Made by a program: the position numbers and the translations under genes. Positions 638 to 43,732 of a DNA stretch of 46,356 bases are shown in pieces; within the stretch, counting starts at the first letter, position 1; every line of letters starts with the position of its first letter. The notes beneath the pieces were generated by a model, which saw only the letters and a list, made by a program, of their open reading frames with translations, had not been told where the DNA came from and searched no databases. This DNA is from Acidobacteriota bacterium. Its GTDB lineage: Bacteria > Acidobacteriota > Terriglobia > Bryobacterales > Bryobacteraceae. Location: positions 1 through 46,356 of the forward strand of contig JAPKZA010000285.1 in assembly GCA_026394015.1 (NCBI GenBank), read 5' to 3'.

Positions 638-647
638 GTCTGGACGG

Positions 648-653
648 TATCAT
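648..653 (+). promoter_or_regulatory. Putative -10 element (TATCAT) for the Omp85 operon
   Basis: TATCAT ends 8 nt before the GTG at 662, so transcription would begin about 1-2 nt before the start codon. An AAGGG lies only 3 nt from the GTG, too close for normal Shine-Dalgarno spacing. No convincing -35 was found at 16-18 bp. This is inferred from position and similarity to the other -10-like boxes in the window. Confidence 0.4.
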
Positions 654-661
654 AAGGGTTA

Positions 662-3625
662 GTGGAACTTCGTCCCGGCCGCACGCTGGTCCCGTGTCTG
701 TTGGTGGCCCTATGGGGGACCGCTCTGACCCCTCACGCCAAAGCCCAGTCTCCGGATTCCACCTACGAAGGCCGTCGTATCGCCAGGATTAGCTACGAAC
801 CCGAAGCCCAGCCCTACACCCGCTCCAACCTGGAGCGCCTTAACCCCGTCAAGCCCGGCGACCCCTTCGCCATTGACTCGATCTCCCGCTCCATCGAAGC
901 CCTTTTCGATACCGGCCGCTACGACGACGTCTCCGTCGATGCTGTCCTCTCGCCCTCCGGCGAAGTCAACGTCACCTATCGCACCATCTCCGCCTGGTTC
1001 GTCGGGGGAGTCTCCATCGCCGGGGCCGCCGACCCGCCCTCCGATGGCCAACTCATCACCGCCACCAAGCTCGAACTCGGCCAGGCCTTCACCGAAGACT
1101 ACCTCATCGAAGCCACCCAAAGCGTCCTCAACTCCCTCCGCTCCAATGGCCTCTACCGCGCCTCCGTCGAACCCCGCTTCTCCTACGACCCCCTCACCCA
1201 GCAGGTCCAAATCAAGTTCCAGCTCGACTCCGGCAAGCGCGCCCGCTTCTCCACCCCCGTCTTCACCGGCGATGCCAAACGCTCCGCCGCCAGCCTCCTT
1301 CGAACCACCCATTGGCAGCGCGTCTGGGGCCTCCTCAGCGCCAAGCACCTCACCGAACAACGCCTCTCCAACGGCCTCGAACGCGTCCGCTTCAGCTTCC
1401 AGAAAAACGACTTCCTCATGGCCCGCGTCAAGCTCGAAGAGCTCCGCTACCTCCCCGCCACCAATCTCGTCCAACCCACCATCTCCGTCTACGCCGGCCC
1501 CCGCATCCAGATCAAGGCCGTCGGCGCCAAGCTCTCCCCCGGGAAGCTCCGCCAACTCGTCCCCATCTACCAGGAGCGCACCGTCGACCGCGACCTCCTC
1601 CTCGAAGGCAACCGCAACATCGAGAAGTACCTCCAGGCCCAAGGCTACTTCGACGCCGCCGTCGAGTTCGATAACCCCGATAACCCCAAAGACGCCGAAC
1701 AGGTCATCGAGTACTCCATCGATCGCGGCATCCGCTATAAGCTCGTCCACCTCGAAGTCTCCGGCAACCGGTACTTCAACCAGCCCACCATCCTCGAACG
1801 CATGGCCGTCCGCCCCGCCACCCGCGTCCGCTACCGCAACGGACGCTTCTCCGACGACCTCCTTCGCAAAGACGTCGACTCCATCGAAGCCCTCTACCGC
1901 TCCAACGGCTTCCGCGACGTCCGCGTCTCCTCCCGCGTCGACAAGGACTACCTGGGCCGCACCGGCGAAGTCGCCGTCTTCATCGAGGTCGTCGAAGGCA
2001 CCCAATGGTTCGTCGCCTCCATCGAACTCTCCGGCGTCAACCCCAAAGACCTCGAATACGCCCAAAGCTCCCTCCAAACCATCGAAGGCCAGCCCTACGC
2101 CGACGCTCACATCGCCGCCGACCGCGACTTCCTCCTCAACTACTACTTCAACAGCGGCTTCCCCGATGCCACCTTCGAGTTCACCGTCAAACCCGCCGAT
2201 CTACCCAACCAGGTCCACGTCCGCTACGCCATCATCGAAGGCCGCCGCAACTTCGTCCGCCGTATCCTCGTCAGCGGCTACCGCACCACGCGCCCCCGCC
2301 TCATCTACGACCGTATCCCCATCCAGTCCGGCGACCCCCTCTCCCAAAGCGCCATCGTCGAAGCCCAGCGCCGCCTCTATGAACTCGGCATCTTCGCCAA
2401 GGTCGATATCGCCCTCCAAAACCCCGAAGGCCGCGAACGCGACAAGTACGTCCTCTACCGCCTCGAAGAAGCCAGCCGCTACTCCTACACCGTCGGCTTC
2501 GGCGCCCAACTCGCCCGCATCGGCGGCGGCAACACCACCCTCGCCGCACCCGCCGGCGCCCCCGGCGTCAGCCCCCGCGTCTCCTTCGGCGTCAGCCGCG
2601 TCAACTTCCTCGGCGTCGGCCACACCCTCGGCTTCCGCAGCCAGGTCTCGAACTTCCAGCAGCGCGTCGCCGTCTCCTACTTCGCCCCCCAGTTCACCGG
2701 CAACGACCGCCTCAACCTCAATCTCACCAGCCTCTTCGATAAGTCCCGCGACGTCCGCACCTTCGCCACCCAGCGCTTCGAAAACTCCATCCAGCTCGGC
2801 CAGCGCGTCTCCCGCTCCACCAGCATCCAGTACCGCTACGCCTTCCGCCAGGTCAAAATCGATGAGAAGACCCTCAACATCGACCCCGCCCTCATCCCCG
2901 TCTTCTCCGTCCCCGTTCGCATCGGCATGTTCTCCAGCTCTTTCATCCGTGACCGCCGCGACGACCCCGTCGACTCCCGCAAAGGCGTCTTCTCGACCAT
3001 CGACTCCGGACTCGCCCACGGCGCCTTCGGCTCCCGCTCGGACTTCGCCCGCCTCCTCATCCGCAACTCCGTCTATCGCCGCATCAAGCGCGACCTCGTC
3101 ATCGCCCAGTCCCTCACCATCGGCAGCATATACTCCTTCGGCCGCGCCACCGGCGACGCCGGCGTCCCCCTCCCGGAACGCTTCTTCGCCGGCGGTGGCA
3201 CCTCCAATCGCGCCTTCCCCGATAACCAGGCCGGCCCGCGCGACCTCGCCACCGGCTTCCCCGTCGGCGGCAAAGCCCTCATCAACCAAAGCCTCGAACT
3301 CCGCTTCCCCCTCATCGGCGATACCCTCGGCGGCGTCATCTTCCACGACGCCGGCAACGTCTACTCCAGCCTCGACAAGATCTCCTTCCGCTACAAGCAG
3401 CGGAACATCACCGACTTCGACTACATGGTCCACGCCCTCGGCTTCGGCGTCCGCTATAAAACCCCCGTCGGCCCCGTCCGCTTGGACATCGCCTACGGCC
3501 TCAATACCCCCAGCTTCTTCGGCTACGAGGGCACCCGCGACCAACTCATCCAGGGCGGCGGCCGCCGCGTCATCCAGCGCATCAACCAGTTCCAATTCCA
3601 CTTCTCCCTGGGGCAGACCTTCTGA
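662..3625 (+). CDS. Omp85-family outer membrane assembly protein (BamA/TamA-like)
   Basis: This is a 987-residue outer-membrane protein that should insert or translocate beta-barrel proteins. A Sec signal covers residues 1-29 (LVPCLLVALWG...AKA). Residues 40-605 contain seven POTRA-like repeats, each opening with a strand such as FVGGVSIAG, YKLVHLEVSGN, FVASIELSGV or FVRRILVSGY and containing a 'Y...G(F/Y)' helix end. The C-terminal 380 residues form a Bac_surface_Ag barrel with a GGGTSNRAF loop near residue 845, equivalent to the VRGF motif of loop L6, and end in Phe as barrel proteins do. Seven POTRAs exceeds the five of E. coli BamA and the three of TamA. The stop overlaps the next start (TGATG), and TamB follows, so it may act as a TamA partner, as BamA, or as both. 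The start is GTG. Codons are strongly C-ending. Confidence 0.9.
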   Translation: MELRPGRTLVPCLLVALWGTALTPHAKAQSPDSTYEGRRIARISYEPEAQPYTRSNLERLNPVKPGDPFAIDSISRSIEALFDTGRYDDVSVDAVLSPSGEVNVTYRTISAWFVGGVSIAGAADPPSDGQLITATKLELGQAFTEDYLIEATQSVLNSLRSNGLYRASVEPRFSYDPLTQQVQIKFQLDSGKRARFSTPVFTGDAKRSAASLLRTTHWQRVWGLLSAKHLTEQRLSNGLERVRFSFQKNDFLMARVKLEELRYLPATNLVQPTISVYAGPRIQIKAVGAKLSPGKLRQLVPIYQERTVDRDLLLEGNRNIEKYLQAQGYFDAAVEFDNPDNPKDAEQVIEYSIDRGIRYKLVHLEVSGNRYFNQPTILERMAVRPATRVRYRNGRFSDDLLRKDVDSIEALYRSNGFRDVRVSSRVDKDYLGRTGEVAVFIEVVEGTQWFVASIELSGVNPKDLEYAQSSLQTIEGQPYADAHIAADRDFLLNYYFNSGFPDATFEFTVKPADLPNQVHVRYAIIEGRRNFVRRILVSGYRTTRPRLIYDRIPIQSGDPLSQSAIVEAQRRLYELGIFAKVDIALQNPEGRERDKYVLYRLEEASRYSYTVGFGAQLARIGGGNTTLAAPAGAPGVSPRVSFGVSRVNFLGVGHTLGFRSQVSNFQQRVAVSYFAPQFTGNDRLNLNLTSLFDKSRDVRTFATQRFENSIQLGQRVSRSTSIQYRYAFRQVKIDEKTLNIDPALIPVFSVPVRIGMFSSSFIRDRRDDPVDSRKGVFSTIDSGLAHGAFGSRSDFARLLIRNSVYRRIKRDLVIAQSLTIGSIYSFGRATGDAGVPLPERFFAGGGTSNRAFPDNQAGPRDLATGFPVGGKALINQSLELRFPLIGDTLGGVIFHDAGNVYSSLDKISFRYKQRNITDFDYMVHALGFGVRYKTPVGPVRLDIAYGLNTPSFFGYEGTRDQLIQGGGRRVIQRINQFQFHFSLGQTF

Positions 3626-8135: not shown

Positions 8136-8136
8136 G

Positions 8137-8841: not shown

Positions 8842-8849
8842 CTATAACC

Positions 8850-8855
8850 AGGATA
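8850..8855 (-). promoter_or_regulatory. Possible -10 element (TATCCT) for the 8841 gene
   Basis: On the minus strand TATCCT ends 8 nt before the ATG at 8841. It sits in the 16-nt gap behind the YdcF-like gene. No Shine-Dalgarno and no clear -35 are visible. A 4/6 match to TATAAT makes this one of the weaker members of the pattern. Confidence 0.25.
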
Positions 8856-8857
8856 CG

Positions 8858-13799: not shown

Positions 13800-13806
13800 A
13801 CCCTTC

Positions 13807-13812
13807 AGGGTA
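13807..13812 (-). promoter_or_regulatory. Possible -10 element (TACCCT) for the receptor gene
   Basis: TACCCT on the minus strand ends 7 nt before the ATG at 13799, within the 58-nt gap after the DUF4105 gene. It fits the window-wide TANNNT spacing, but the hexamer is only a 3-4/6 match and GAAGGG beside the ATG is an alternative ribosome-binding signal. Confidence 0.25.
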
Positions 13813-13857
13813 GTGACCGAAGGGTTACAGGCGAATCAACGTTGGCTGACAGTTCGG

Positions 13858-14682
13858 CTAAAAACCCGGCAGGCCCACTCGAATCCGCCGCGAAAAATCC
13901 TCGGCTTGGTCGGCGTCTTTCGCGCGGCGGTTGATCAGCGCCTGCTGCTGGAGATCGGCGAGGCTGAGGCCGAGAGCGTTGAAGTTGCCCAGCTCGTAGA
14001 GCATCTCTTCACCCTTGCCGTTAGCCAGTTGCCGCCAGTCCCAACGAGAGACGCCGCCAATGCCGCGGGCAACCAGGAAGTCCGTAAAGGAGTTGGTGCA
14101 GTTGGCGGTTAGGGCGTTGTACCACTGCGGCTCGCGCCGGGCGGTGTTCATCCACACGAGGTACTCGCGGAAGAGCGCCTGGGAATCGGCCGGGGTCATG
14201 CGGGTGCGATAGAGCCGCACCTCTTCGTCGGTACGGACGTTGGTCCGCAGGCGAATCACGTCCCGTTCCTCCGATAGGATAAAGATGCGCTCGTACTGGC
14301 GGAAGAAGCCCCAAAGGGCGGAGTAGCTTTCGCCGATCTCTTTGCGCGCCTCGATGGACGCGGTGAGGTAGCGGTTCTCTCCGAAGTCAAAGCTGACGAG
14401 CGCGTGGGCGATCCACGGCGACCCCCAATGGGAGACGAACAGATCGATGCCGCGGAGGTCGCTGATCTTCACTTCGCGGTCTTCCCAACGAGCGTTGAAC
14501 TCGGCCTCGGTCTTGCCCCAGGCGAAGTTGCGGACGTTGTGGAGGCGCACGCGATCGCCGTCGATTTCGGCCCACGCTACTTGAGCGACATCGGGCTGCC
14601 ATAGGCGGTCGTTCGATGGAATCCGTGTGACCCACCAGCCCAGCACCAACAACACGACCACCACTCCCAGTTTCTTCATCAT
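13858..14682 (-). CDS. DUF4105 (Lnb N-terminal periplasmic-like) protein
   Basis: This encodes 274 residues when started at ATG 14682 (MMKKLGVVVVLLVLGWWVTRI), which gives a signal-anchor or Sec signal and a 4-nt ATGA overlap with the upstream kinase gene. A longer open frame reaching 14850 only overlaps kinase coding sequence and is rejected. DUF4105 features are visible: HNVRNFAWGKTEAEFNARWEDR, ISDLRGIDLFVSHWG, a FDFGENRYLTASIEARKE stretch, and WYNALTANCTNSFTDFL with a conserved Cys. Proteins of this family are periplasmic and resemble cysteine-peptidase folds, but their biochemical role is not settled. Its place at the end of the sigma/kinase operon makes it a candidate output or target of that signalling. 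Confidence 0.82.
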   Translation of the reverse strand: MMKKLGVVVVLLVLGWWVTRIPSNDRLWQPDVAQVAWAEIDGDRVRLHNVRNFAWGKTEAEFNARWEDREVKISDLRGIDLFVSHWGSPWIAHALVSFDFGENRYLTASIEARKEIGESYSALWGFFRQYERIFILSEERDVIRLRTNVRTDEEVRLYRTRMTPADSQALFREYLVWMNTARREPQWYNALTANCTNSFTDFLVARGIGGVSRWDWRQLANGKGEEMLYELGNFNALGLSLADLQQQALINRRAKDADQAEDFSRRIRVGLPGF

Positions 14683-17216
14683 TCGTGACTCCGTTTCCAC
14701 CATCGACGAACCCATTCGGCCCGCCAGCCTCCGGCCTTGCTTTTCTCGAAGAGCGCCTGGATGGGATCGAGCACGGCCTGCGCTTCCTTCCGCTGCCCGG
14801 TGCTGGCCAGCGCCACACCCACCGCCGACTCGGCGAACTGACTCATCCAATGGGTCGGCTTCAAGACGCCAACCAGCAGTTCCCGGCCCATGCGGGCGTT
14901 GTCGAGCGCCTCGCGGCCGCGGGCGGTTTCCACCTGGGCGGCGGCATAGATGATCCGCACATAGCCACGCTCGATTTTGGGCGGAGGCTGCTGCCGATCC
15001 AGGCCCGTCATCGCTTCCCGCGCCAACTGCGCGGCCTCGGCATAGCGGCGTTGCTCGAGCCGTACCGAGGACAGTTTCAGTAGAGCCCGCTGGTACGCCA
15101 GCGAATCAGGGCCGGACACGTTGCGCTGCTTTTCCACCAGCAGCAGAAGCGTTTCGCCTGCCGCTGCCAGATCGCCGGCCGCCTGCTGCATCACGGCGAA
15201 GTTCGAAACGGAAACGAGCAACTCGCGGCTGTCCTCGCCGAGGTATTCGGCATACATCGCATGGGCCTCGCGATAGCTCTTCTCGGCTTCCGGGAATTTC
15301 TTTAGACTGGCGATCGTATTGGCCAAGTTGTTCAGGGTGCGCGCCAGTTTGGCATGGCCTTCCGGATAGAGCTTTCGCTGCAACGCGAGGGCCTCGCGAA
15401 TGGCCGCCTCGCTATCGGCGAAGCGCCCCTGCCGGAAGTAGAGGCTGCCCAGCGCTTCCAGCGACTCGGCCGTCGTGCTGGGCTGGCCACCGGCGCGGGC
15501 GAGGGCGAGGGAATCGCGGTAGCTGGTTTCCGCTGCCGCGTAGTCATTGCTATCGCCGAGCGTCATGCCGTAGCTGCGGAGGATCTTCGAGCGGACCAGG
15601 GGCGGTAAGCCGCTGACAGGCAGCAGCGCCGCCGCCTCCCGGCACGCGGGCAGCGCGAGCGCGATCTTCCCGGCTTGGTGCAGCGCCAGGCACTGGTGTT
15701 CGAGAGCTACCGCAAGGTCGCCGGCAGTGCCCGCGCGAGCGAGCGTCACCGCCTGCTGCGCGCTCTCCATTGCCGGGCCGTATTGGGCTCGCTGGCTCTG
15801 CCCTTCGGCCAGGAAGCCATAGGCACCGGCCGCTCGAACGCTGTCCCCCCGACGAAGATAGGCCGGGGCGATTTCGGCATAAAGAGCATTCGCCTTCTCG
15901 TGCAGACCGAGCCCGAAGTAGGCTTCGGCCATGGTGTCGAGAAGGTCGAGACGGGTGGCTTCGTCGAGGGCTGATTCCCGGATGCGCCGGGCGCCGTTGT
16001 CGAGAAGTTCCCGCGTGGTCAGGCGGTTGCCTTGGTTCTGCTCCGGGTCCGCCGAACGGAACAGGCCGCGAAGAAAGCCCGCCACGGTTTCGGCGCGCTG
16101 TCGCTGTTGATCGACCTGCTGCTTCTGCCAGTAGGTTACCCCGGCAAAGGCGATGAGCAAAACGGCGACGAGCGCCGAAGCCCCGACGGCGATCCGGTTC
16201 CGGCGGATGAACTTGGCGGCCTGATACTGCCACTTGCCTTGGCGCGCCGAGACGGGCAGCCCGGCCAACCAGCGTTCCAAATCGAGGGCGAACTCCGCCG
16301 CGGAGCTATACCGCTGATCGGGCTCCTCGCGGGCGGCCTTGGAGGCGATGGCGCGCAGATCCTCATCCGCCTGCTCGCCGGCGAGTTCGCTCCAAACGCG
16401 GCCGAGCGAATAGGTATCGGCGGCGGTGGTGACGGCTTCGCCACGCAACTGCTCGGGGCTGGCGTACGCGGGCGTCGCAACGCGGAAGAGCGTGGCGGTC
16501 TGATTGCCGGGTAGGTCCCATTCGCTCGGATCGAGCGGCTTGGCGATGCCGAAGTCGAGAAGCTTAATGACGCCTTCGGCGGTGACGAGAATATTGGCCG
16601 GCTTCAGATCGCGGTGGACCAGCAAGCGCTGATGGGCAAAGTGGACGACACGGGCGACATCGGCCATCAACCGCACCCGCTCTCGCAGCGGTCGCCCGGA
16701 AGCGTAGGAGACGAGATCGACGCCTTCGACATACTCGAGAACGAGAAACGGAATCCCCTCCGGCGAGATGCCGCCATCGAGGAGCCGGCAGATATTGGGG
16801 TGCTCGAGCTTTGCGATGATCTGGCGTTCGCTCTCAAAGCGGCCCAGGATTTCGCGCTCCAACTCTCGCGGCAGCAGAGCCGGTAAAGCGATGAGCTTGA
16901 TGGCGGCCCGTTGGTGGTAACCGCCATCCACGCGTTCGGCGCGGTGGACGATGCTCATGCCGCCTTGCCCGATCACTTCGTCCAGTCGCCAAACGCCGAG
17001 CCGACTTCCGGGAGCCATGCGCCGGGGCTGCACGATGGGCTCGGCGAGATAGTCAGCCGACTGCGCGGCGGACAAAAGCAGCGATTCAACTTCCTGGCGA
17101 ATCCGATCCTCCACCCCGGCCAGATGCGCCGACCGTTCCGCGGGGGGCAACGCAACGACGGCTTCGAAAAGTTCCGCCGCACGGCGTTGCTCGTCCGTCG
17201 TCAGCGGTGGATTCAC
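14679..17216 (-). CDS. Transmembrane Ser/Thr protein kinase with TPR-like C-terminus and shortened C-lobe
   Basis: An 845-residue Hanks-type kinase starting at GTG 17216, which overlaps the sigma-factor stop in GTGA. An N-terminal 65-residue segment precedes the kinase domain: G-loop GQGGMS (83-88), Lys107 (AAIKLI), HRDLKPANIL with Asp203, DFG with Asp221, and AYASPEQ. Between DTYSLGRVWSEL and DLRAIASKA only 7 residues remain, where the paralogue at 18208-20910 has 38, so the C-lobe around helix G is about 31 residues short. A single transmembrane helix follows (VGASALVAVLLIAFAGVTYW). The rest is a long TPR-type helical sensor region (repeats such as ESLEALGSLYFRQGRFADSEAAI). It probably phosphorylates the adjacent ECF sigma factor or related targets. 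Confidence 0.9.
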   Translation of the reverse strand: MNPPLTTDEQRRAAELFEAVVALPPAERSAHLAGVEDRIRQEVESLLLSAAQSADYLAEPIVQPRRMAPGSRLGVWRLDEVIGQGGMSIVHRAERVDGGYHQRAAIKLIALPALLPRELEREILGRFESERQIIAKLEHPNICRLLDGGISPEGIPFLVLEYVEGVDLVSYASGRPLRERVRLMADVARVVHFAHQRLLVHRDLKPANILVTAEGVIKLLDFGIAKPLDPSEWDLPGNQTATLFRVATPAYASPEQLRGEAVTTAADTYSLGRVWSELAGEQADEDLRAIASKAAREEPDQRYSSAAEFALDLERWLAGLPVSARQGKWQYQAAKFIRRNRIAVGASALVAVLLIAFAGVTYWQKQQVDQQRQRAETVAGFLRGLFRSADPEQNQGNRLTTRELLDNGARRIRESALDEATRLDLLDTMAEAYFGLGLHEKANALYAEIAPAYLRRGDSVRAAGAYGFLAEGQSQRAQYGPAMESAQQAVTLARAGTAGDLAVALEHQCLALHQAGKIALALPACREAAALLPVSGLPPLVRSKILRSYGMTLGDSNDYAAAETSYRDSLALARAGGQPSTTAESLEALGSLYFRQGRFADSEAAIREALALQRKLYPEGHAKLARTLNNLANTIASLKKFPEAEKSYREAHAMYAEYLGEDSRELLVSVSNFAVMQQAAGDLAAAGETLLLLVEKQRNVSGPDSLAYQRALLKLSSVRLEQRRYAEAAQLAREAMTGLDRQQPPPKIERGYVRIIYAAAQVETARGREALDNARMGRELLVGVLKPTHWMSQFAESAVGVALASTGQRKEAQAVLDPIQALFEKSKAGGWRAEWVRRWWKRSHE

Positions 17217-17737
17217 GATCCGCTCAGCTCCCGGAATAGCCAGGTGCGGGCGTAGGTCCAGTCGCGTTTGACCGTGATCAACGACACCTCCAGCGCTTCG
17301 GCGATTTCAGGGAACTCCATGCCGCCGAAGAAGCGCATCTCGACGACCTGCGCCTTTCGCCCGCTGATCTCGGCTAAACGGACCATCGCCCGATCGAGAT
17401 CGAGCAGCTCCTCCGGGCGCAGGGAGAGGTCGCCGCTGACGACCGTGATCGCATCGTCGAGCGGCAGGTCACCGACTCCGGAGTTGCGTTTGGCGGCCAT
17501 CCGGGCGCGGGTCGAGTCAACCAAAATCAGCCGCATCGCATGACCGGCTAGCGCCAGAAAATGAGTCCGCGACTTCCATCGGCCGCCGGAGAGCCGGACC
17601 CAAGCTTCATTGACGAGGGCCGTGGGTTGCAGCATCTGTTCGCAACCCCGGGAGCGATATAGGTGGATCGCGGCGATCTTCTTTAGCTCAGAGTATAGGT
17701 TCGGCAGATCAAGCGAGGCGTCTTCCGTCGCAACCAT
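17213..17737 (-). CDS. ECF-type RNA polymerase sigma factor (TIGR02999-like), copy 1
   Basis: 174 residues from ATG 17737; a TTG two codons upstream (17743) is an alternative start. Region 2 is represented by LYSELKKIAAIHLYRSRG, PTALVNEAWVRL and HFLALAGHAMRLILVDSTRAR. The region 4 helix-turn-helix includes RKAQVVEMRFFGGMEFPEIA and VSLITVKRDWTYARTWL. This arrangement matches the TIGR02999 group typical of Acidobacteria and Planctomycetes, which lack membrane anti-sigma factors and are usually encoded beside Ser/Thr kinases. In Vibrio, an ECF factor of a kinase-linked group is switched on by phosphorylation. The TGA overlaps the kinase GTG. A GAGAGA 8 nt before the ATG may serve as a ribosome-binding site, and no -10-like box abuts the start, consistent with an internal operon gene behind the globin. 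Confidence 0.9.
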   Translation of the reverse strand: MVATEDASLDLPNLYSELKKIAAIHLYRSRGCEQMLQPTALVNEAWVRLSGGRWKSRTHFLALAGHAMRLILVDSTRARMAAKRNSGVGDLPLDDAITVVSGDLSLRPEELLDLDRAMVRLAEISGRKAQVVEMRFFGGMEFPEIAEALEVSLITVKRDWTYARTWLFRELSGS

Positions 17738-17770
17738 AGGCAATCTCTCAACACGAAAGGATATCAGACA

Positions 17771-18211
17771 CTAAGTACGCGGAGCGGTAACAGATAAGCC
17801 CTCACCAACGGAGGCACCGGCGATCATTTCGGCGCTGATGGCGCGCAGCAGGGTTTGCCAGGCGGTGCGAGTAGCCGGGGAGCAGCCGCCTTCGAGGGCC
17901 CGGGTAATCGCCCAGATCAGCGATTGTTCCACCAGTTCATAGTGACGGGGTAGCACGCCGTAATCCGCATGCTGCTGGCCCAGATTGCGCAGCTTGGGCA
18001 GCAAGGGCTCGAGATTGTCCAGGCTGTCGACGGCTACCTGAAGAGTAGCGACCAGCTTCGCCGCCTGATCCTTCATGGGCGCTTTGAACAGAGGCCTGAG
18101 GGAGGGGTCGAGTTCGAAGAGCTTGCCGTAGAACAACATCACCATCGGCTGAGCGACGTCCTGGATGGCCTCGAAACTATTCCGGATTAACTGCTTTTCT
18201 TCGCGCGTCAC
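17771..18211 (-). CDS. Single-domain globin (flavohaemoglobin/Vitreoscilla-type)
   Basis: A 146-residue haem-binding globin with no attached domain. The key residues align with flavohaemoglobin globin domains: TyrB10 = Tyr28 (VMLFYGKLFELDPSLRPLF), GlnE7 = Gln49 (MKDQAAKLV) and proximal HisF8 = His81 (LGQQHADYGVLPRHYELV). The Tyr/Gln distal pair typically stabilises bound O2 and supports NO dioxygenation or O2 binding, but no reductase domain is present. The GTG start at 18211 overlaps the stop of the upstream kinase gene in GTGA, so it is translated with that kinase, and the second sigma factor starts 33 nt after it. This placement suggests haem-based sensing or gas scavenging within the signalling operon, which is inference. 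Confidence 0.88.
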   Translation of the reverse strand: MTREEKQLIRNSFEAIQDVAQPMVMLFYGKLFELDPSLRPLFKAPMKDQAAKLVATLQVAVDSLDNLEPLLPKLRNLGQQHADYGVLPRHYELVEQSLIWAITRALEGGCSPATRTAWQTLLRAISAEMIAGASVGEGLSVTAPRT

Positions 18212-20910: not shown

Positions 20911-20913
20911 GAC

Positions 20914-21480
20914 CTAGGCGCTCTCCGTCATGTATTTTTGCAGCCAGGCTTCGGCGAAGCGTTGTTCGCGGCCGACGGTGGCGACGGAGATATTGAGCGC
21001 CTGGGCCGTCTCTTCGATGCTCATGCCGCCGAAGTAGCGGAGTTCGATGACCTTGGCTTTGCGTTCGTCGAAAGCGGCGAGGCCGCCGAGGGCGTCGTCG
21101 AGGGCGATGATCCCGGCGCTGCGTTCCGGGGCGAAGTTGAGCGCTTCATCGAGGGAAGCGGCCCGTTGGCCGCCGCCGCGCTTTTCGGCGACATGGTGGC
21201 GGGCGTGGTCGACCAGGATTTGGCGCATCCGATGGGCGGCGACGCCGAAGAAGTGGGCTCGGCTCTCCCAATCCGGGAGTTCGCCGCCGGCGAGTTTGAG
21301 GTAGGCCTCGTGGACGAGTACGGTCGGTCCGAGGGTTTGGGCGTTGCGTTCGTCGCGGAGATAGTGGGCGGCGAGACGGCGTAGCTCATCGTAAATGAGC
21401 GGGGTGAGGAGGTCGAGAGCGGCTTTGTCGCCGGACTTCCACTGCGCGAGAAGTTGCGTAACCTGTTCTGAACCCGGCAT
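20914..21480 (-). CDS. ECF-type RNA polymerase sigma factor (TIGR02999-like), copy 2
   Basis: 188 residues. Region 2 contains LLTPLIYDELRRLAAHYLRDE, PTVLVHEAYLKL and HFFGVAAHRMRQILVDHARH; region 4 contains RKAKVIELRYFGGMSIEETA and NISVATVGREQRFAEAWL. These are hallmark stretches of the TIGR02999 sigma group. It is first in the long minus-strand run and lies 3 nt ahead of its partner kinase. TATAAT ends 9 nt before the ATG, so the transcript would have a leader of only about 2-3 nt. It may be controlled by phosphorylation by the neighbouring kinase and may direct its own operon; both are inferences from related systems. Confidence 0.92.
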   Translation of the reverse strand: MPGSEQVTQLLAQWKSGDKAALDLLTPLIYDELRRLAAHYLRDERNAQTLGPTVLVHEAYLKLAGGELPDWESRAHFFGVAAHRMRQILVDHARHHVAEKRGGGQRAASLDEALNFAPERSAGIIALDDALGGLAAFDERKAKVIELRYFGGMSIEETAQALNISVATVGREQRFAEAWLQKYMTESA

Positions 21481-21489
21481 TAGCTCTCA

Positions 21490-21495
21490 ATTATA
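21490..21495 (-). promoter_or_regulatory. -10 element (TATAAT) of the sigma/kinase/globin operon
   Basis: A perfect TATAAT on the minus strand ends 9 nt before the ATG at 21480, within a 54-bp divergent gap. No good -35 lies 16-18 bp upstream. The predicted start of transcription is only 2-3 nt before the start codon. A GAGAG between the box and the ATG would then not be transcribed. Confidence 0.5.
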
Positions 21496-21521
21496 GTAGA
21501 GACTTCAACTCGTTTGGTCGA

Positions 21522-21527
21522 TACAAT
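21522..21527 (+). promoter_or_regulatory. -10 element (TACAAT) setting the kinase-FGE start
   Basis: TACAAT ends 7 nt before the in-frame GTG at 21535, placing transcription initiation on or beside that GTG. A longer reading frame from TTG 21514 would include the box within its coding sequence, so GTG 21535 is preferred. The -35 position (GAGACT at 21499-21504, 17-bp spacer) matches TTGACA at only 3 of 6 bases. Confidence 0.45.
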
Positions 21528-21534
21528 AGCTAAG

Positions 21535-24473: not shown

Positions 24474-24480
24474 GCCAAGA

Positions 24481-24488
24481 AGTATAAA
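24481..24488. promoter_or_regulatory. Shared bidirectional -10 element AGTATAAA
   Basis: Read on the minus strand, TATACT (24486-24481) ends 7 nt before the Gfo/Idh ATG. Read on the plus strand, TATAAA (24483-24488) ends 9 nt before the PSD1-A ATG at 24498. The whole divergent gap is 24 bp. A GAGACA (4/6 to TTGACA) lies 17 bp behind the minus-strand -10, inside the PSD1-A coding region. The identical 8-mer recurs at 30702-30709. Confidence 0.5.
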
Positions 24489-24497
24489 CTCAGGATC

Positions 24498-27400
24498 ATG
24501 CGGTGTCTCGCCTTTCTGTTCACAGTCTCTCTTTTCGCCAAACCCGTCGAGTTCACGCGCGACGTGCGACCCATCCTCTCCGACGCCTGCTTCCAATGCC
24601 ACGGGCCCGATGATTCGTCGCGGATGGCCAAGCTTCGGCTCGATACCAAGGAAGGCGCATTCGCCAAAGCCATCGTCCCCGGCAAATCCGCCGACAGCCC
24701 GCTGATCAAGCGCATCACCCACGCCAACAAAGCCCTCCACATGCCGCCGTTGACGGCGAAGGTTCAGCTCACCGAACCGCAGGTCGCCACGCTGAAGCAG
24801 TGGATCGACGAAGGTGCCAAATGGGAAGAGCACTGGGCTTACGCCAAGCCCGTCAAACCCGCCGCGACTTCGATCGACGCCGTCGTCCTTGCCCGCCTCG
24901 CCAAGGAAGGCTTGAAGCCGAGCCCCCTCGCCGACAAGGCCACCTTACTCCGCCGCGTCACCCTCGACCTGACCGGCCTGCCGCCCACCCCCGCCGAACT
25001 CGATGCCTTCCTCGCCGACAAGTCGCCGCAGGCCTATGAGAAGGTCGTCGACCGCCTCTTCGCCAACCCGCACTACGGCGAAAAGCAGGCCATGCATTGG
25101 CTCGACCTCGCCCGCTATGCCGATACCCACGGCTATCACATCGACTCCCACCGCGACATGTACCCCTGGCGCGACTGGCTCATCGGCGCGTTCAACAAGA
25201 ACATGCGCTACGACCAGTTCACCATCTGGCAACTCGCCGGTGACCTGCTGCCCAACGCGACCCGTGAGCAAAAAGTTGCCTCCGGCTTCAACCGCAACCA
25301 CGTCATCAACTACGAAGGCGGTGCCATTCCCGAGGAGTACCAGACCGAGTACGTCATCGACCGCGTCGAAGCGACGACCACCACTTGGCTCGGCCTCACC
25401 GTCGGCTGCGCCCGCTGCCACGATCACAAGTACGACCCGATCAAGCAGAAGGATTTCTACCAGTTCTTCGCCTTCTTCAATAACGTCGCCGAAAAGGGCC
25501 TCGACGGCCAGAAGGGCAACGCCGCTCCGTTCTTAGCCCTGCCCACGGAAACCCAAGCCGGGCTGCTCAAGGAGATTAACGAAGCCGTCGCCACCCGCGA
25601 AAAGCAACTCGAAGCGGCGAAAATCCCGGACCAACTCAAAACCTGGGAAGCGTCGAAGACCTTCGCCGAACCGTCCCGCCAAGGCCTGCTGGCCCACTAT
25701 GAGTTCGAAGGCAACATGCTCGAATCGACCGGCACCTATCGCCACGGCCGCTACCTGGGCCTGCCGCCGACGCCGCGCGACGGCCCCGTCGGCCAGGCCG
25801 CCACGTTCGATTCCACCTCCCTCGCCGAGGCCCCGGCGTCGCATGACTTCGACTCGACCAAGCCCTTCTCCATCGCCTACTGGTTCCGCGGCGGCAACAA
25901 CATCGAGCCGCTCACGATCCTCCAGCAGAAGAATGAAACCGGCTGGCTCTTCACCCACGACACCATCTTCAGCATCGGCGATCTGCGCCGCGGATCCCAT
26001 CTCATCATCAAGTTTTTCGGGCCCAACGGCGCCGCCCTCGAACTCCAAACCGCCCAGCCCTTCCCTTACGGCGACTTCGTCCACTTCGCCCTGAACTACG
26101 ACGGCCGCGGCAAGTTCACCCTGCTCCAGGACGGCAAGCCCGCCGCACTCGTCACGACCAAGAACTCGCTCGGCACCGCCAACTTCAAGACCAACGCGCC
26201 GCTAACGGTGACCAAACTCGTCGGCACCCTCGACGACCTCCGCATCTACAATCGCGAGCTCACCCCCGCCGAAGCCCATCAACTCGCCGTCGTCGAACCA
26301 GTCCGTTATCTTCTGGCCAACTCCGGCATTCGCCGGTCGAAAGAGCAACTGGCCACCGTTCGGGAGTACTACCTCACCTATGACGCCCCGGCCGAAACGA
26401 AGTCGCTCTACGCCCGTCTCAATCAACTCAAGGCCGAGCGCAAGGCCCTCGAAGAGGCCATCCCGACCACGATGGTGATGGCCGAACGCGACGACCCGCG
26501 CGAGAGCTTCATCCTGCTCCGCGGCCAGTACGATCGCAAGGGCGAAAAGGTATCCGCCGCCACGCCCGCCTTCCTGCCGCCCATGCCGGCCAGCATGCCG
26601 CGCAACCGCCTCGGTCTGGCCCAATGGCTCGTCAGCCCGGACAATCCGCTCACGGCTCGCGTCGCCGTCAACCGCATGTGGGCGAACCTGTTCGGCACCG
26701 GCCTCGTGAAAACGGTGGAAGACTTCGGCAGCCAGGGCGAGCAGCCGTCGCATCCCGAACTGCTCGATCTCCTCGCCACGCAGTTCGTCGAATCCGGCTG
26801 GGATATGAAGGGATTGCAGAAGCAGATTGTCCTTTCCGCCACGTACCGGCAGGTTGCCAAAAGCTCCCCCGCGCTGCACGAACGCGACCCCGAGAATCGG
26901 CTCCTCGCCCGCATGTCGCGCTTCCGTCTGCAAGGCGAATCGGTTCGCGATAACGCGCTCGCCGTCAGCGGCCTGCTGAACCCTTCGATCGGCGGCAAAT
27001 CGGTTTCGCCGTATCAACCGCCCGGCCTCTGGGAGGACGTCGCCTACGGTGCCCAGTTCTCGGCCCAGCGCTATGAACAGTCCCACGGGCCGGACCTCTA
27101 TCGCCGCGGCATGTACAGCTTCTGGAAACGGACGCTGCCCCCGGCCGAGCTCGCGACCTTCGACGCCCCCGACCGCGAAAAATGCGTTGCCCGCCGCGCC
27201 ACCACCAACACCCCGCTGCAGGCGCTGGCCCTGTGGAATGATCCGACCTTCATCGAAGCCGCCCGTCAGTTGGCAGACCGCACGCTCGCCGAAGCCGGCC
27301 CCGATCAGACCAAGCGGCTGCGCCTGATGTTCCGCATCGCCACCGCCCGCTACCCCAACCCGACCGAACTCCAACTGCTCCGCCAAACGGCCTTCGAGCA

Positions 27401-27554
27401 GATCGCCGAGTACAAAGCCAAGCCCGCCGACGCGCAGAAGTTGATCGCCATCGGCGAGTCCAAATCGAAGTACCGCGATCCGATTGAACTCGCCGCCTGG
27501 ACCAGCGTCGCCTCGGCCATCCTCAACCTCGACGAAGTCATCACCAAGGAATAA
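24498..27554 (+). CDS. PSD1-type cytochrome protein (PSCyt1-DUF1549-LamG-DUF1553), copy A
   Basis: A 1018-residue exported protein (signal MRCLAFLFTVSLFA). An N-terminal planctomycete-type cytochrome domain carries haem motif CFQCH (Cys31, Cys34, His35), with MPPL as a possible axial-Met region. DUF1549 follows (RRVTLDLTGLPPTPAEL, HWLDLARYADT), with a second CARCH motif (Cys304, Cys307, His308) in CARCHDHKYDP. A LamG/concanavalin-like domain is inserted at about 395-600 (LLAHYEFEGNMLEST ... LDDLRIYNRELTPAE). DUF1553 completes the protein (RLGLAQWLVSPDNPLTARV, TPLQALALWNDPTF). Family members are paired with DUF1501 proteins and are suspected of acting in polysaccharide breakdown, but no reaction is proven. 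The LamG domain would suit glycan binding. DUF1501-A starts 4 nt downstream. Confidence 0.92.
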   Translation: MRCLAFLFTVSLFAKPVEFTRDVRPILSDACFQCHGPDDSSRMAKLRLDTKEGAFAKAIVPGKSADSPLIKRITHANKALHMPPLTAKVQLTEPQVATLKQWIDEGAKWEEHWAYAKPVKPAATSIDAVVLARLAKEGLKPSPLADKATLLRRVTLDLTGLPPTPAELDAFLADKSPQAYEKVVDRLFANPHYGEKQAMHWLDLARYADTHGYHIDSHRDMYPWRDWLIGAFNKNMRYDQFTIWQLAGDLLPNATREQKVASGFNRNHVINYEGGAIPEEYQTEYVIDRVEATTTTWLGLTVGCARCHDHKYDPIKQKDFYQFFAFFNNVAEKGLDGQKGNAAPFLALPTETQAGLLKEINEAVATREKQLEAAKIPDQLKTWEASKTFAEPSRQGLLAHYEFEGNMLESTGTYRHGRYLGLPPTPRDGPVGQAATFDSTSLAEAPASHDFDSTKPFSIAYWFRGGNNIEPLTILQQKNETGWLFTHDTIFSIGDLRRGSHLIIKFFGPNGAALELQTAQPFPYGDFVHFALNYDGRGKFTLLQDGKPAALVTTKNSLGTANFKTNAPLTVTKLVGTLDDLRIYNRELTPAEAHQLAVVEPVRYLLANSGIRRSKEQLATVREYYLTYDAPAETKSLYARLNQLKAERKALEEAIPTTMVMAERDDPRESFILLRGQYDRKGEKVSAATPAFLPPMPASMPRNRLGLAQWLVSPDNPLTARVAVNRMWANLFGTGLVKTVEDFGSQGEQPSHPELLDLLATQFVESGWDMKGLQKQIVLSATYRQVAKSSPALHERDPENRLLARMSRFRLQGESVRDNALAVSGLLNPSIGGKSVSPYQPPGLWEDVAYGAQFSAQRYEQSHGPDLYRRGMYSFWKRTLPPAELATFDAPDREKCVARRATTNTPLQALALWNDPTFIEAARQLADRTLAEAGPDQTKRLRLMFRIATARYPNPTELQLLRQTAFEQIAEYKAKPADAQKLIAIGESKSKYRDPIELAAWTSVASAILNLDEVITKE

Positions 27555-27557
27555 GCC

Positions 27558-28913
27558 ATGAACTCCCGCCGCGATTTCCTCTCCCAACTCGCTCTGTCCA
27601 GCCTGCTCTCCGGCGCTACGCCTACCAAGGCGAAGTCCATCATCTACCTGCACATGTCCGGTGGCCCTTCGCAGATCGACCTCTTCGATCCCAAGCCGAT
27701 GCTGAAGAAGTTCCAGGGCCAGGACCTGCCGGCCTCCATCCGCATGGGCCAGCGCATCACCGGCATGACCTCCGGCCAGTCCACGCTTCCCGTCGCGAGC
27801 TCGATTTTTTCGTTCGGCAAGTACGGCCAATCCGGGGCTCAACTTTCCGAACTCCTCCCCTACCACCAGAAGATCGCCGACGATATCTGCATCGTCCGTT
27901 CCGTCAATACCGACGCGATCAACCACGACCCCGCCATCACCTTCATCCAAACCGGCTCGCAGCAACCGGGCCGCCCCTGCATCGGCTCCTGGGTGAACTA
28001 CGGCCTCGGTAGCGAAAACAAAAACCTGCCCGCGTTCGTCGTCATGATCAGCCAGAAAAGCGGCATCAACGTCGACCAGCCGCTGTTTTCCCGCCTCTGG
28101 TCCAGCGGCTTCCTGCCGTCGAACTATCAAGGCGTAAAGTTCCGCTCCGGCACCGATCCGGTGCTCTTTCTGAACGACCCGGCCGGCATCACGCCCACCA
28201 CCCGGAAGAATATCCTCGACCTCTCCGCCAAGCTCAACCAGCAGCGTTCGGCCGAACTCGGCGACCCCGAAATCGATACGCGCATCGCGCAGTACGAGAT
28301 GGCTTACCGCATGCAAACGTCGGTTCCTGAACTCACGGATCTATCGAAGGAAACCGAGGCGACCTACAACCTCTACGGCCCGGAATCGCGCAAGCCCGGC
28401 ACCTTCGCCCAGCAGTGCCTGCTGGCCCGACGTCTCGTCGAACGCGGCGTCCGTTTCGTGCAGCTTTACAACCGCGGCTGGGACCAACACGGCGACCTGC
28501 CGCGCGATCTCGCGCTGCAAGCCAAAGCCGTCGACCAGCCCTCGGCCGCTCTCGTTCTCGACCTGAAGCAGCGCGGCCTGCTGAAAGATACGCTCGTCGT
28601 TTGGGGCGGGGAGTTCGGTCGTACCGTGTATTGCCAGGGCCGCCTGACGGAGACCAACTACGGCCGCGACCATCATCCGCGGTGCTTCTCCATGTGGTTC
28701 GCCGGCGGCGGGATTAAGGGCGGCCAGACGATCGGCGAAACCGACGACTACTCGTACAACATCGTCCGCGACCCCGTTCATATCCACGACATGCAGGCCA
28801 CTCTGCTGCACTGCCTAGGCGTCGACCACCTCAAGCTGACCTACAAGTTCCAGGGTCGTTACTTCCGGCTGACCGACGTCCACGGCAACCTGGTGAAGCA
28901 GATGGTCGCCTAG
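27558..28913 (+). CDS. DUF1501 family Tat-exported protein, copy A
   Basis: 451 residues. A twin-arginine-type signal ([19 protein letters not shown]) leads into the DUF1501 core, an alkaline-phosphatase/sulfatase-like fold: [113 protein letters not shown] and the C-terminal [14 protein letters not shown]. Metal-binding-type Asp and His residues are present in GEFGRT, GRDHHP and HDMQAT. No activity is established for the family, but it is found as the invariable partner of PSD1 proteins. It starts 4 nt after PSD1-A and its TAG shares the tetranucleotide CTAG with the convergent gene's stop. Confidence 0.92.
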
Positions 28914-30694: not shown

Positions 30695-30701
30695 ATGTGG
30701 C

Positions 30702-30709
30702 AGTATAAA
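30702..30709. promoter_or_regulatory. Shared bidirectional -10 element AGTATAAA
   Basis: TATACT on the minus strand (30707-30702) ends 7 nt before the ATG at 30694. TATAAA on the plus strand (30704-30709) ends 6 nt before the ATG at 30716. The divergent gap is only 21 bp. No good -35 was found on either side. This box argues for ATG 30716 over the ATG at 30695, which would lie upstream of the -10. Confidence 0.5.
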
Positions 30710-30715
30710 GTCGAA

Positions 30716-31291
30716 ATGCCTAAGTCTGCTGAAATTTGGCTCGCCCGTCACGGCGAGACCGCCTGGAGCCTCTCCGGTCAACACACCGGACGCACCGATT
30801 TACCCCTGCTGGACAGCGGCATCGAGCAAGCCCAATCGCTCGGCCGCCTTCTCGCCGGGCGCAAGTTTAGCCTCGTCCTCACGAGCCCGCTCCAGCGCGC
30901 CCAGGAGACCTGCCGCATCGCCGGCTACGGGGATGGCGCCACAGTCCACCCCGATCTCGCCGAGTGGCACTACGGGGCGCTAGAAGGCCGCCTGACGGCC
31001 GACCTGGTCGCCGAGCGCCCCGGCTGGAACCTGTGGAAGGACGGCCCCCCCGAAGGCGAGTCGGTCGACCAGGTCACCGCCCGCGCGCAGAACGTCATCG
31101 ACGCCTGCCTCGAAGCCGATGGTCCCGTGCTGCTCTTCTCCCACGGCCACCTGCTCCGCTTCCTCGCCTGCGCCTGGATCGGGATCGACCCCCGCCTGCT
31201 CGCGCCGCGTCTGGCGCTCAGCACGGCCTCGCTCAGCATGTTGAGTCAGGAGAAGCAGTCCCGCGCCATCGGCAGTTGGAACCGGGTTTAG
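30716..31291 (+). CDS. Histidine phosphatase (phosphoglycerate mutase superfamily)
   Basis: 191 residues from ATG 30716. An ATG at 30695 is in frame but would put the -10-like box inside the gene. The catalytic RHGE motif is at 11-14 (phospho-acceptor His12), and further conserved residues are Arg61 (SPLQRAQET), Glu83 (DLAEWHYGALEG) and His143 (SHGH). The GRTDLPLLDSG stretch fits the broad-specificity phosphatase or CobC-like branch, not glycolytic mutases, and the length is that of small cytoplasmic phosphatases. No signal peptide is present. The substrate is unknown. Its TAG overlaps the convergent patatin gene's TAA in the tetranucleotide TTAG. Confidence 0.9.
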   Translation: MPKSAEIWLARHGETAWSLSGQHTGRTDLPLLDSGIEQAQSLGRLLAGRKFSLVLTSPLQRAQETCRIAGYGDGATVHPDLAEWHYGALEGRLTADLVAERPGWNLWKDGPPEGESVDQVTARAQNVIDACLEADGPVLLFSHGHLLRFLACAWIGIDPRLLAPRLALSTASLSMLSQEKQSRAIGSWNRV

Positions 31292-33417: not shown

Positions 33418-33423
33418 GGTCCA

Positions 33424-33429
33424 AGTCTA
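33424..33429 (-). promoter_or_regulatory. -10-like element (TAGACT) for the patatin gene
   Basis: TAGACT on the minus strand ends 6 nt before the ATG at 33417. The same hexamer with the same 6-nt gap precedes the DUF4139 gene at 39596. The divergent gap to the cytochrome gene is 39 bp. Confidence 0.4.
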
Positions 33430-33435
33430 GTGGAA

Positions 33436-33441
33436 TACAAT
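33436..33441 (+). promoter_or_regulatory. -10-like element (TACAAT) for the cytochrome/PQQ operon
   Basis: TACAAT lies 15 nt before ATG 33457, and a Shine-Dalgarno GGAGGG (33444-33449) stands 7 nt before that ATG. If this is the -10, the leader is about 8 nt and would contain at most part of the Shine-Dalgarno. It breaks the 6-9 nt pattern, and is one of two first genes that do so. Confidence 0.4.
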
Positions 33442-33456
33442 TTGGAGGGCAGTCCC

Positions 33457-35801: not shown

Positions 35802-35806
35802 GAGGC

Positions 35807-39596: not shown

Positions 39597-39943
39597 CCAG
39601 TAAGTCTATTACAAGCGGGAAGTGACCGATCACTCGGTCTTCGGATCCCGCCGCGGGCGGGGGAACGACCCAGCGTGACGACGCCGGCGCTGGACGCGGA
39701 AGAACGGAGGGCGTAGACGAAACGCGGCGACTTCTCCGACGACGCGTTCGATGGTCGTGGACGAGTGTCCGGAAGGGAGAGCAACCGTGCCGCAGCGGTA
39801 CTCGAGGCTGGGTCCGCACTTGCCGGTGCCGGTTCCGGTGGACCGGGCGAAACGAAGCTGGACTCCTTGGCTCCGGAGAGGACGGAGTCGTTCCAGGCGG
39901 CCGTGAGAGGCAATGTGGTGAGGAAGGCCAGAATGGAGCGCAT
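39593..39943 (-). CDS. Doubtful small exported ORF in the 39.6-40.05 kb gap
   Basis: This is the only coding candidate in the 458-bp gap between the DUF4139 gene and the 40055 gene. From ATG 39943 it reads 116 residues. The first 16 (RSILAFLTTLPLTAA) look like a Sec signal, but the rest is Ser/Pro/Ala-rich with no recognisable domain. Its TGA would overlap the DUF4139 ATG in ATGA, which is typical of operons here. Against it: no Shine-Dalgarno and no close -10-like box, and the DUF4139 gene has its own TAGACT box inside this frame. It may be a degraded gene or chance. I see no repeats, RNA gene or terminator elsewhere in the gap. Confidence 0.25.
   Translation of the reverse strand: MRSILAFLTTLPLTAAWNDSVLSGAKESSFVSPGPPEPAPASADPASSTAAARLLSLPDTRPRPSNASSEKSPRFVYALRSSASSAGVVTLGRSPARGGIRRPSDRSLPACNRLTG
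39603..39608 (-). promoter_or_regulatory. -10-like element (TAGACT) for the DUF4139 gene
   Basis: TAGACT on the minus strand ends 6 nt before the ATG at 39596, the same hexamer and gap as at the patatin gene. No Shine-Dalgarno lies between it and the ATG and no -35 was recognised. Confidence 0.4.
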
Positions 39944-40042
39944 GAGGGGAGAGCGGAATCGGCGGGGATAGAGTTTCACTCCCTCTCTGGAAGAACGATC
40001 AGCCGAAGCCCGAGTCGGCAGCTTACTCCTGCCGGCCTGAAT

Positions 40043-40048
40043 TAAGAT
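40043..40048 (+). promoter_or_regulatory. -10-like element (TAAGAT) for the 40055 gene
   Basis: TAAGAT ends 6 nt before the GTG at 40055, matching the window's leaderless pattern. The intervening GAAAGG could instead be a Shine-Dalgarno too close to the GTG. The hexamer match is 4/6. Confidence 0.3.
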
Positions 40049-40054
40049 GAAAGG

Positions 40055-40583
40055 GTGAATCCCCAGTCGCTGGCGAACGGATATCAATGGCTGACGTTGG
40101 TAGATGACGATATCGCCTCGCTGCTGCTCCTTTGTCCCGAAATTGTTTTGGGAAAGTATCTCGCCGTCACGAGTATCGGTGGGGGTTCTCTACACCTCGC
40201 CAAGCAGGAGGAGGTTCCGGGATGGTGGACATCGAAGGCCGGGAGAGTCTTCACGGGCACTGATTGGAGTCCACCGGCATATCAGGACGAGTGGAAGATC
40301 GCCTACAGTCCGCGAGTTACATCGCTCGCACACGATTCATGACGGTTGCTGTTCCGGATACGACGAGTGGTACGTTTTTGAAGAGCCTGCGCCGGTGGAA
40401 GACATGGAGACGTTCGTGAGCTGGGTCGGCTTTCGCCTGGACGATCCGTGCTTGCAGTGGACAATTGAACGCTTCTGGCGGCAGATCGCAAAGTCCCGCC
40501 CTGAGTCCTACATTGGATTTGGCACCGGGCTCACGGTGGTCACTCGGAATGCGCTTTTGCTTGAGCGCCTACGCTCCATCTAG
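40055..40583 (+). pseudogene. Hypothetical gene interrupted by an apparent frameshift
   Basis: The first frame runs from GTG 40055 (NPQSLANGYQWLTLVDDDIA ...) to TGA at 40340-40342, 95 residues. A second frame, shifted by +1, carries coding-like sequence from about 40325 to TAG 40581-40583 (YDEWYVFEEPAP, WVGFRLDDPCLQWTIERFW, IGFGTGLTVVTRNALLLERL). Joined near 40320-40345 they give one globular protein of about 176 residues. One extra base, or two missing, would explain the break. No slippery heptamer was seen, so programmed frameshifting is unlikely; a mutation or an assembly error is more likely. Codons are less C-biased than in the neighbours, suggesting recent acquisition. No family is recognised; the acidic, aromatic-rich style resembles small immunity-type proteins but that is only an impression. 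The stop is 5 nt from the convergent peptidase gene. Confidence 0.5.
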
Positions 40584-43722: not shown

Positions 43723-43732
43723 GGTGGTTCCC

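Follow-up and report, generated by a model that had tools for sequence, protein, structure and literature searches.

Compact leaderless-type promoters predicted between closely spaced genes of a Bryobacteraceae genome

Introduction

As a signal of bacterial leaderless genes, Zheng et al. (2011) described a TA-like motif (TANNNT) that precedes the start codon by about 12 bp (PMC3160421). Acidobacteria appear in Table 2 of that study with three of three genomes and an average of 13.3% leaderless genes (range 9.7–19.4), and its authors state that, within a polycistronic transcript, a leaderless start is possible for the proximal gene only. In Deinococcus-Thermus, Zhong et al. (2025) demonstrated with reporters that TANNNT placed 6–7 bp before an open reading frame (ORF) acts as a promoter (PMC12340547). 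Warman, Grainger and colleagues described bidirectional promoters in which a symmetric −10 element is read on both strands; divergent transcription starts are most commonly 18 bp apart, and distances of 10 and 23 bp are also common (PMC12825309, PMC10268837). Acidobacterial anti-Shine-Dalgarno data are available in PMC10783764. Here, we analysed TANNNT boxes next to start codons in a 46,356-nt contig of an Acidobacteriota bacterium of the Bryobacteraceae (GCA_026394015.1, JAPKZA010000285.1; this whole stretch is referred to as the window) and in a larger sample of the same genome. An initial annotation of the window had listed twelve first-in-unit genes with a −10-like box ending 6–9 nt before the start codon, and had predicted leaderless transcription as the default.

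Motif and position in our genome are those reported in PMC3160421, and the net proportion of about 12% of the genes that we obtained agrees with the 13.3% given there. The proposed extension of the signal to this lineage is not new at the level of the phylum: leaderless acidobacterial genes were already predicted in 2011. Less to be expected was how tightly such genes seem to be packed. In contrast to the restriction to proximal genes stated in PMC3160421, the box rate was highest here between close same-strand genes. The motif adjoining the ORF is the same as the −10 motif of Deinococcus-Thermus (PMC12340547), in a different phylum. Compared with the bidirectional promoters of PMC12825309 and PMC10268837, both RNAs would be leaderless here, with 16–27 bp between the start codons. 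Word searches of the main texts did not find 'divergent' or 'stop codon' in PMC3160421, 'divergent', 'stop codon' or 'upstream gene' in PMC12340547, or 'leaderless' in PMC12825309 and PMC10268837.

Methods

The genome assembly comprises 7.9 Mb in 574 contigs and is 97% complete; the window is contig C5. In protein comparisons, one match of 99% came from an Acidobacteria metagenome-assembled genome, and matches of 71–74% came from Bryobacterales, Solibacteraceae or other Acidobacteriota and from one Planctomycetota record, which points to Acidobacteriota and probably to Bryobacterales. A sample of ~1.17 Mb (~15% of the genome) was analysed together with parts of the genomes of two relatives, G017 and G022. 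Genes were called with our own script, which uses codon statistics only and ignores upstream signals. The first positional counts were made on unjoined stretches (875 genes) and later counts on joined stretches (868 genes). Edge genes, genes near the ends of stretches (limits of 40–120 nt) and genes open at the 5′ end were excluded. Twelve overlapping divergent genes were kept separate in the first positional count and were included in the divergent class afterwards. Divergent genes and genes with a same-strand gap of at least 11 nt are termed non-tight.

The chance baseline for box counts was derived from 300 dinucleotide shuffles. In the frame test, an ATG or GTG located 6–9 nt past a TANNNT was scored as in or out of the frame of the gene, which depends less on the start calls. 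The comparison sets were G022 (family f3) and plasmids of Deinococcus deserti (positive control), Granulicella and Sinorhizobium meliloti (negative control); these are small samples, three of them plasmids. A cross-phylum frame test used 72 of 80 loci, which also form small sets.

Results

A positional peak of TANNNT, the absence of which at −12 to −15 the initial annotation had named as speaking against its prediction, was found at −13/−12 in the own-genome sample. TANNNT was present at −15 to −12 of 45 of the 240 divergent genes (shuffle mean 11.9, maximum 22) and of 38 of the 152 genes with same-strand gaps of 0–25 nt (mean 6.2, maximum 14); an excess was unclear for overlapping genes (5/149; mean 2.7, maximum 7). 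The frame test gave a clear bias. Near the called starts of unit-leading genes, an ATG or GTG was in frame 37 times and out of frame 4 times at a gap of 6 nt, and the ratio was 31 to 7 at a gap of 7 nt. With gaps of 6–9 nt and all classes combined, 134 events were in frame and 31 out of frame, made up of divergent genes (62/15), same-strand gaps of 0–25 nt (39/3), same-strand gaps of at least 26 nt (27/8) and overlapping genes (6/5). Ten classes of arbitrary hexamers upstream of divergent genes yielded 279 events in frame and 241 out of frame, and the ratio expected by chance is therefore about 1:1 and not 1:2.

The same signal was obtained with G022 (divergent genes, 19 in and 4 out of frame; same-strand gaps of at least 26 nt, 18/1). 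Since this relative belongs to family f3, leaderless-type starts, as judged from the frame bias, are not special to the genus. The S. meliloti plasmid gave 6 events in and 10 out of frame with four classes taken together. Among unit-leading genes of the cross-phylum loci, the numbers in and out of frame were 10 and 4 in other Acidobacteriota and 4 and 2 in Verrucomicrobiota; no signal was found in the loci from Bacteroidota (18/48) and Planctomycetota (1/2).

Promoters of the extended −10 type carry TGn before the −10 element and do not need a −35 element. A G two bases 5′ of the box occurred with a frequency of 0.58 in divergent genes and 0.53 at gaps of 0–25 nt, whereas the controls gave 0.33 (within genes) and 0.26 (other noncoding DNA). 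The fifth letter of the box was A or C in 0.85 (divergent), 0.82 (0–25 nt) and 0.89 (at least 26 nt) of the cases; in control TANNNT sites the frequency was 0.45 in coding and 0.70 in noncoding DNA, the latter control comprising 66 sites. TTGACA at a distance of 16–18 nt was not in excess in our genome (12 vs 9.7 expected) or in G017 (6 vs 5.9). The enriched G and the lack of a −35 excess in these two genomes would fit extended −10 promoters, but the full TG was found in a minority (18 of 59 divergent boxes and 5 of 38 short-gap boxes). A box and a Shine-Dalgarno-like site co-occurred in only 4 of 793 genes.

Boxes were frequent where little space is available between genes of the same strand. 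At gaps of 0–25 nt, the rate of 38/152 in our genome and of 14/65 in G017 was the highest or near-highest of all classes. The corresponding counts were 2/31 in G022, 0/19 in D. deserti, 1/10 in Granulicella and 2/29 in S. meliloti, that is, 52/217 in our genome and G017 versus 5/89 in the four other sets (3/60 without S. meliloti). Of the 52 boxes, 24 overlap letters of the stop codon of the upstream gene and 15 start exactly at it. A TAA or TAG stop was followed by a T three bases on in 12 of 29 cases at gaps of 9–12 nt and in 34 of 142 cases at other gaps up to 60 nt in our genome; in G017 the numbers were 5/10 and 11/64, a modest difference. The expectation that only first genes of units have boxes would hold for the short-gap genes if each of them started a unit of its own. 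A stop codon overlapping a leaderless −10 was not named in any of the titles or abstract openings listed by our literature searches.

Closely spaced divergent genes form the other tight arrangement. The start codons 24473 and 24498 are 24 bp apart with AGTATAAACT common to both, which corresponds to the 23-bp layout of bidirectional promoters, and the overlapping −10 pair is kept in nine of nine loci that hold both genes. With symmetric cores and starts at 5–9 nt, both frames were right in 8 of 37 matches in our genome and G017; the eight matches represent seven distinct pairs, as C59:28289 was scored under both core types. Control cores were in frame on both sides in 2 of 182 cases in the same two genomes, and symmetric cores in none of 19 cases in the four other sets. 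Divergent gaps of 0–40 bp were found in 24 of 173 pairs in our genome and G017 but in only 3 of 89 pairs when the four other sets were combined (Fisher p 0.009). None of the titles and abstract openings listed by our literature searches named a shared divergent leaderless −10.

The prediction that leaderless transcription is the default was not supported by the counts from the larger sample. When the 31 out-of-frame events were scaled by 279/241 and subtracted, a net leaderless-type box remained for about 98 of 793 genes (12%); this figure counts events, which occur nearly one per gene. Before chance subtraction, 59 of 240 divergent genes have a box. The whole sample, which includes the window, has 545 non-tight genes, and 106 of these have a box; the numbers are 39 of 214 in G017 and 9 of 12 in the window. 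As an outlier, the window behaves as a stretch selected for its richness in boxes should. We also considered the GC content of contigs as the cause of this richness and found only a mild trend.

The accompanying proposal, according to which first genes are leaderless and inner genes use Shine-Dalgarno sequences, fits the window. Its inner genes lack boxes (0/9 overlapping genes and 0/5 genes at gaps of 3–10 nt), and Shine-Dalgarno-like sites precede 6 of the 9 and 5 of the 5, respectively. Genome-wide, the proposal fails for gaps of 0–25 nt, at which the box rate is highest and 27 of 152 genes have a Shine-Dalgarno-like site.

Conservation of individual boxes was followed in relatives. A TANNNT precedes the aligned ATG of 24473 by 6–8 nt in 18 of 18 orthologs from the genus (at least 70% identity, our genome included), while the flanks vary and the divergent neighbour is present in only nine of these loci; a nineteenth same-genus genome gave a match of only 31%. 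In all nine loci with this neighbour (our genome included), TAAACT precedes its ATG (24498) by 7–8 nt. No aligned start of a 24473 homolog in other families has a box at zero offset. In family f3, TATCAT or TATGAT is located well upstream in seven of nine sequences (L201–L207), and six of these seven have an AGGAG-type site before ATG or TTG, i.e. a leadered layout. Judged from these sequences, the mode of initiation would have switched among the 24473 orthologs, which have a leaderless-type start in the genus and a leadered layout in family f3.

The box of 30694 is kept in seven of seven loci with an alignable start (our genome included); nine further loci were not alignable there, and L220–L228 were skipped for this gene. 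For 30716, an ATG or GTG is aligned in seven loci, with no TANNNT at the scored gaps; TATAAA or TATATA is found 6 nt upstream in the sequences read. The ORF 30716–31291 itself was missed by the gene caller. It has 71–93% identity in six relatives with ATG or GTG at the aligned start, and we consider it likely to be a real gene. TATCAT of 662 is kept in nine same-genus orthologs read (L289–L296, L299), at 7–8 nt to GTG in the five nearest, and both orthologs read from other families (L300, L301) have TATAAT at other distances. TATAAT-9-ATG of 21480 is present in three of three relatives read (L283–L285). In the same three, no box was found at 6–9 nt for 21535, and GGTGGAGA precedes the GTG in two of them (L283, L284). 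Of 33417, TACACT or TAGACT is located 6 nt before ATG in three of three relatives read (L286–L288), and 39596 has TATACT-6 in L297 and TATCCT-5 in L298, the two relatives read. The protein encoded from 8841 aligned from residue 1 in five relatives; the comparison of boxes covered the listed genes apart from 8841, 13799 and 40055.

All twelve hexamers of the initial annotation were found at the gaps it had given (Table 1). Its status of first-in-unit is wrong or doubtful for 662, 8841 and 13799, which have close same-strand genes upstream, and two hexamers, the TATAAA at 24498 and at 30716, do not conform to TANNNT. At 24498, the TATAAA-9 at 24483–24488 is overlapped by a TAAACT-7-ATG that fits better. 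For two genes, the chosen starts (24473 and 33417) have better support than those of the gene caller (24449 and 33318) because homologs align from residue 1. The 95-aa ORF starting at 40055 was found in our genome only; a search of 18 relatives and Pfam gave no matches to it, it was not called by the gene caller, and it is therefore probably not a gene.

Table 1. Boxes upstream of the twelve listed start codons in the window
Box	Position	Strand	Distance to start and context
TATCAT	648..653	+	8 nt to GTG 662, Omp85/POTRA gene; same-strand gap 24 nt
TATCCT	8850..8855	−	8 nt to ATG 8841; end of same-strand neighbour 16 nt upstream of start
TACCCT	13807..13812	−	7 nt to ATG 13799; same-strand gap 58 nt
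TATAAT	21490..21495	−	9 nt to ATG 21480, extracytoplasmic function (ECF) sigma factor
TACAAT	21522..21527	+	7 nt to GTG 21535; weak, unconserved in three relatives
TATACT	24481..24486	−	7 nt to ATG 24473; minus half of common divergent −10
TAAACT	24485..24490	+	7 nt to ATG 24498; plus half of common −10, 2 bp overlap with minus box
TATACT	30702..30707	−	7 nt to ATG 30694; region common with 30716
TATAAA	30704..30709	+	6 nt to ATG 30716; not TANNNT
TAGACT	33424..33429	−	6 nt to ATG 33417, patatin-like
TAGACT	39603..39608	−	6 nt to ATG 39596
TAAGAT	40043..40048	+	6 nt to GTG 40055; ORF probably not a gene

Several observations concern genes of the window and their relatives. A plus-strand cytochrome c gene, for which GTG 33430 had been called, seems rather to start at ATG 33456 (ATGCGRA in the window and in L286–L288), and a short-leader layout is more likely for it than a leaderless one. 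The region 14679–23151 has two ECF sigma factor genes amid three Ser/Thr kinase genes, whose products carry TPR or FGE-sulfatase domains; a globin gene lies between them. In 24498–28913, a PSCyt1/PSCyt2/PSD1 (DUF1549/DUF1553) gene is followed by a DUF1501 gene, a pair of a type known from planctomycetes; a second DUF1501 gene is located in 42379–43950. The match to the patatin-like gene of relative G011 (C175:49969–52770) is broken into several pieces, and additional short matches to its last ~40 residues lie further on. Scans of the window for tRNA genes and with Rfam gave no matches, nor did a megablast search of one window gene against Escherichia coli.

Discussion

Taken together, leaderless-type promoters in this genome are well supported by sequence, position, frame, letter preferences and conservation. 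We suggest that a TANNNT preceding a start codon by 6–9 nt serves as the −10 element of a compact promoter of the housekeeping sigma factor, of the extended −10 type with a G two bases before the box and no −35 element. The transcription start would then coincide with the start codon or lie next to it, and the mRNA would be leaderless. We infer leaderless transcription at the box genes, together with initiation on a 5′-terminal AUG or GUG, the use of sigma-70 and the exact 5′ ends. About one gene in eight would use such a promoter, which would not be the default. Promoter and start signal together would need only ~15–18 bp, and the signal would therefore fit between close same-strand and divergent genes. 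In same-strand gaps of 0–25 nt, the box would give a gene its own transcription start, often sharing letters with a stop codon. Between divergent genes 16–27 bp apart, one near-symmetric −10 (TANNNTA or ANNNTANNNT, in 18-bp and 23-bp layouts) would serve both strands. We put the probability of this reading, a compact extended −10 leaderless promoter that is also used in tight gaps and between divergent genes and is not the default, at roughly 80%.

A number of results weigh against it. Same-strand gaps of at least 26 nt are less enriched (27/252): the excess is unclear at 26–59 nt (6/68; shuffle mean 3.2, maximum 9) and barely above shuffles at 60 nt or more (12/184; mean 6.0, maximum 12), and the frequency of G two bases 5′ of the box is only 0.37 at 26 nt or more, close to the coding control. 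The majority of unit-leading genes have neither a box nor a Shine-Dalgarno-like site at the called start, and some starts were misplaced by our home-made gene caller. G022 has a slight −35-like excess (5 vs 2.3 at 16–18 nt). The signal of the positive control, the D. deserti plasmid, is small (13/115 unit-leading genes, and none of 19 at 0–25 nt), and 0–25-nt genes of the Bacteroidota, in which nothing was expected, gave 6 events in and 2 out of frame (28 genes). Moreover, TAA and TAG stops provide the TA for free, so that some coincidence of stop and box is expected, and the shared-box layout of divergent genes needs only one extra base and is thus partly due to chance.

Chance alone, with AT-rich upstream DNA often holding TANNNT and starts having been chosen to fit, would account for the failure of 40055 and 21535 and for the two listed boxes that are not TANNNT. 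We give this explanation next to no credence: it conflicts with the shuffles, the frame test against arbitrary hexamers, the −10-like letters and the conservation of boxes despite changed flanks, and the unit-leading genes of the Bacteroidota and Planctomycetota loci lack the signal. It is refuted for the set, while single members may still be due to chance. That leaderless transcription is the default of unit-leading genes in the lineage is suggested by the nine of twelve non-tight genes in the window; given that the window was singled out for richness, and given the proportions in the whole sample and in G017 and the net value of about 12%, we regard it as very unlikely. The short-gap pattern, in turn, could stem from stop-codon letters and spacing instead of promoters. 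TAA and TAG stops dominate short gaps generally, nearly half of the boxes there overlap stop letters, and the window's genes at 3–10 nt have Shine-Dalgarno-like sites and no box. In the other 28 of 52 boxes, however, no stop letters are involved; the preferences for G and for A or C are about as in divergent boxes, the frame bias is strong (39/3), and such boxes are rarer in the other sets. We consider an explanation by stop letters improbable.

A further alternative accepts the boxes as real −10 elements but assumes that many leaders are ~5–15 nt long or that translation starts further downstream, so that these would be short-leader genes. The probable start of the 33430 gene at ATG 33456, which is located 15 nt past TACAAT with GGAGGG between, is such a case, and GGTGGAGA before the GTG in two of the three relatives of 21535 points in the same direction. 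The in-frame peak at 6–7 nt, which puts the usual transcription start point on the codon, and the near absence of Shine-Dalgarno-like sites at box genes speak against this alternative, which we regard as rather unlikely but take seriously.

More tentatively, and with somewhat less than even confidence, we propose that this genus breaks apparent operons with an all-in-one signal of ~15–18 bp, in which stop codons double as part of the next −10 element and a pair of leaderless mRNAs arises from a single symmetric −10; leaderless initiation might be favoured as genes become movable and self-contained. If this were true, operon prediction by gene spacing would be systematically wrong in the genus. 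The analysis provides a genus-level, conservation-backed case in which leaderless-type promoters lie in tight same-strand gaps or are shared by divergent genes, and the 24473 orthologs, with a leaderless-type start or a leader plus Shine-Dalgarno site depending on the family, make a switch between the two modes open to direct study. These findings bear on operon prediction, on the annotation of acidobacterial start codons and on the question of why leaderless initiation persists in bacteria.

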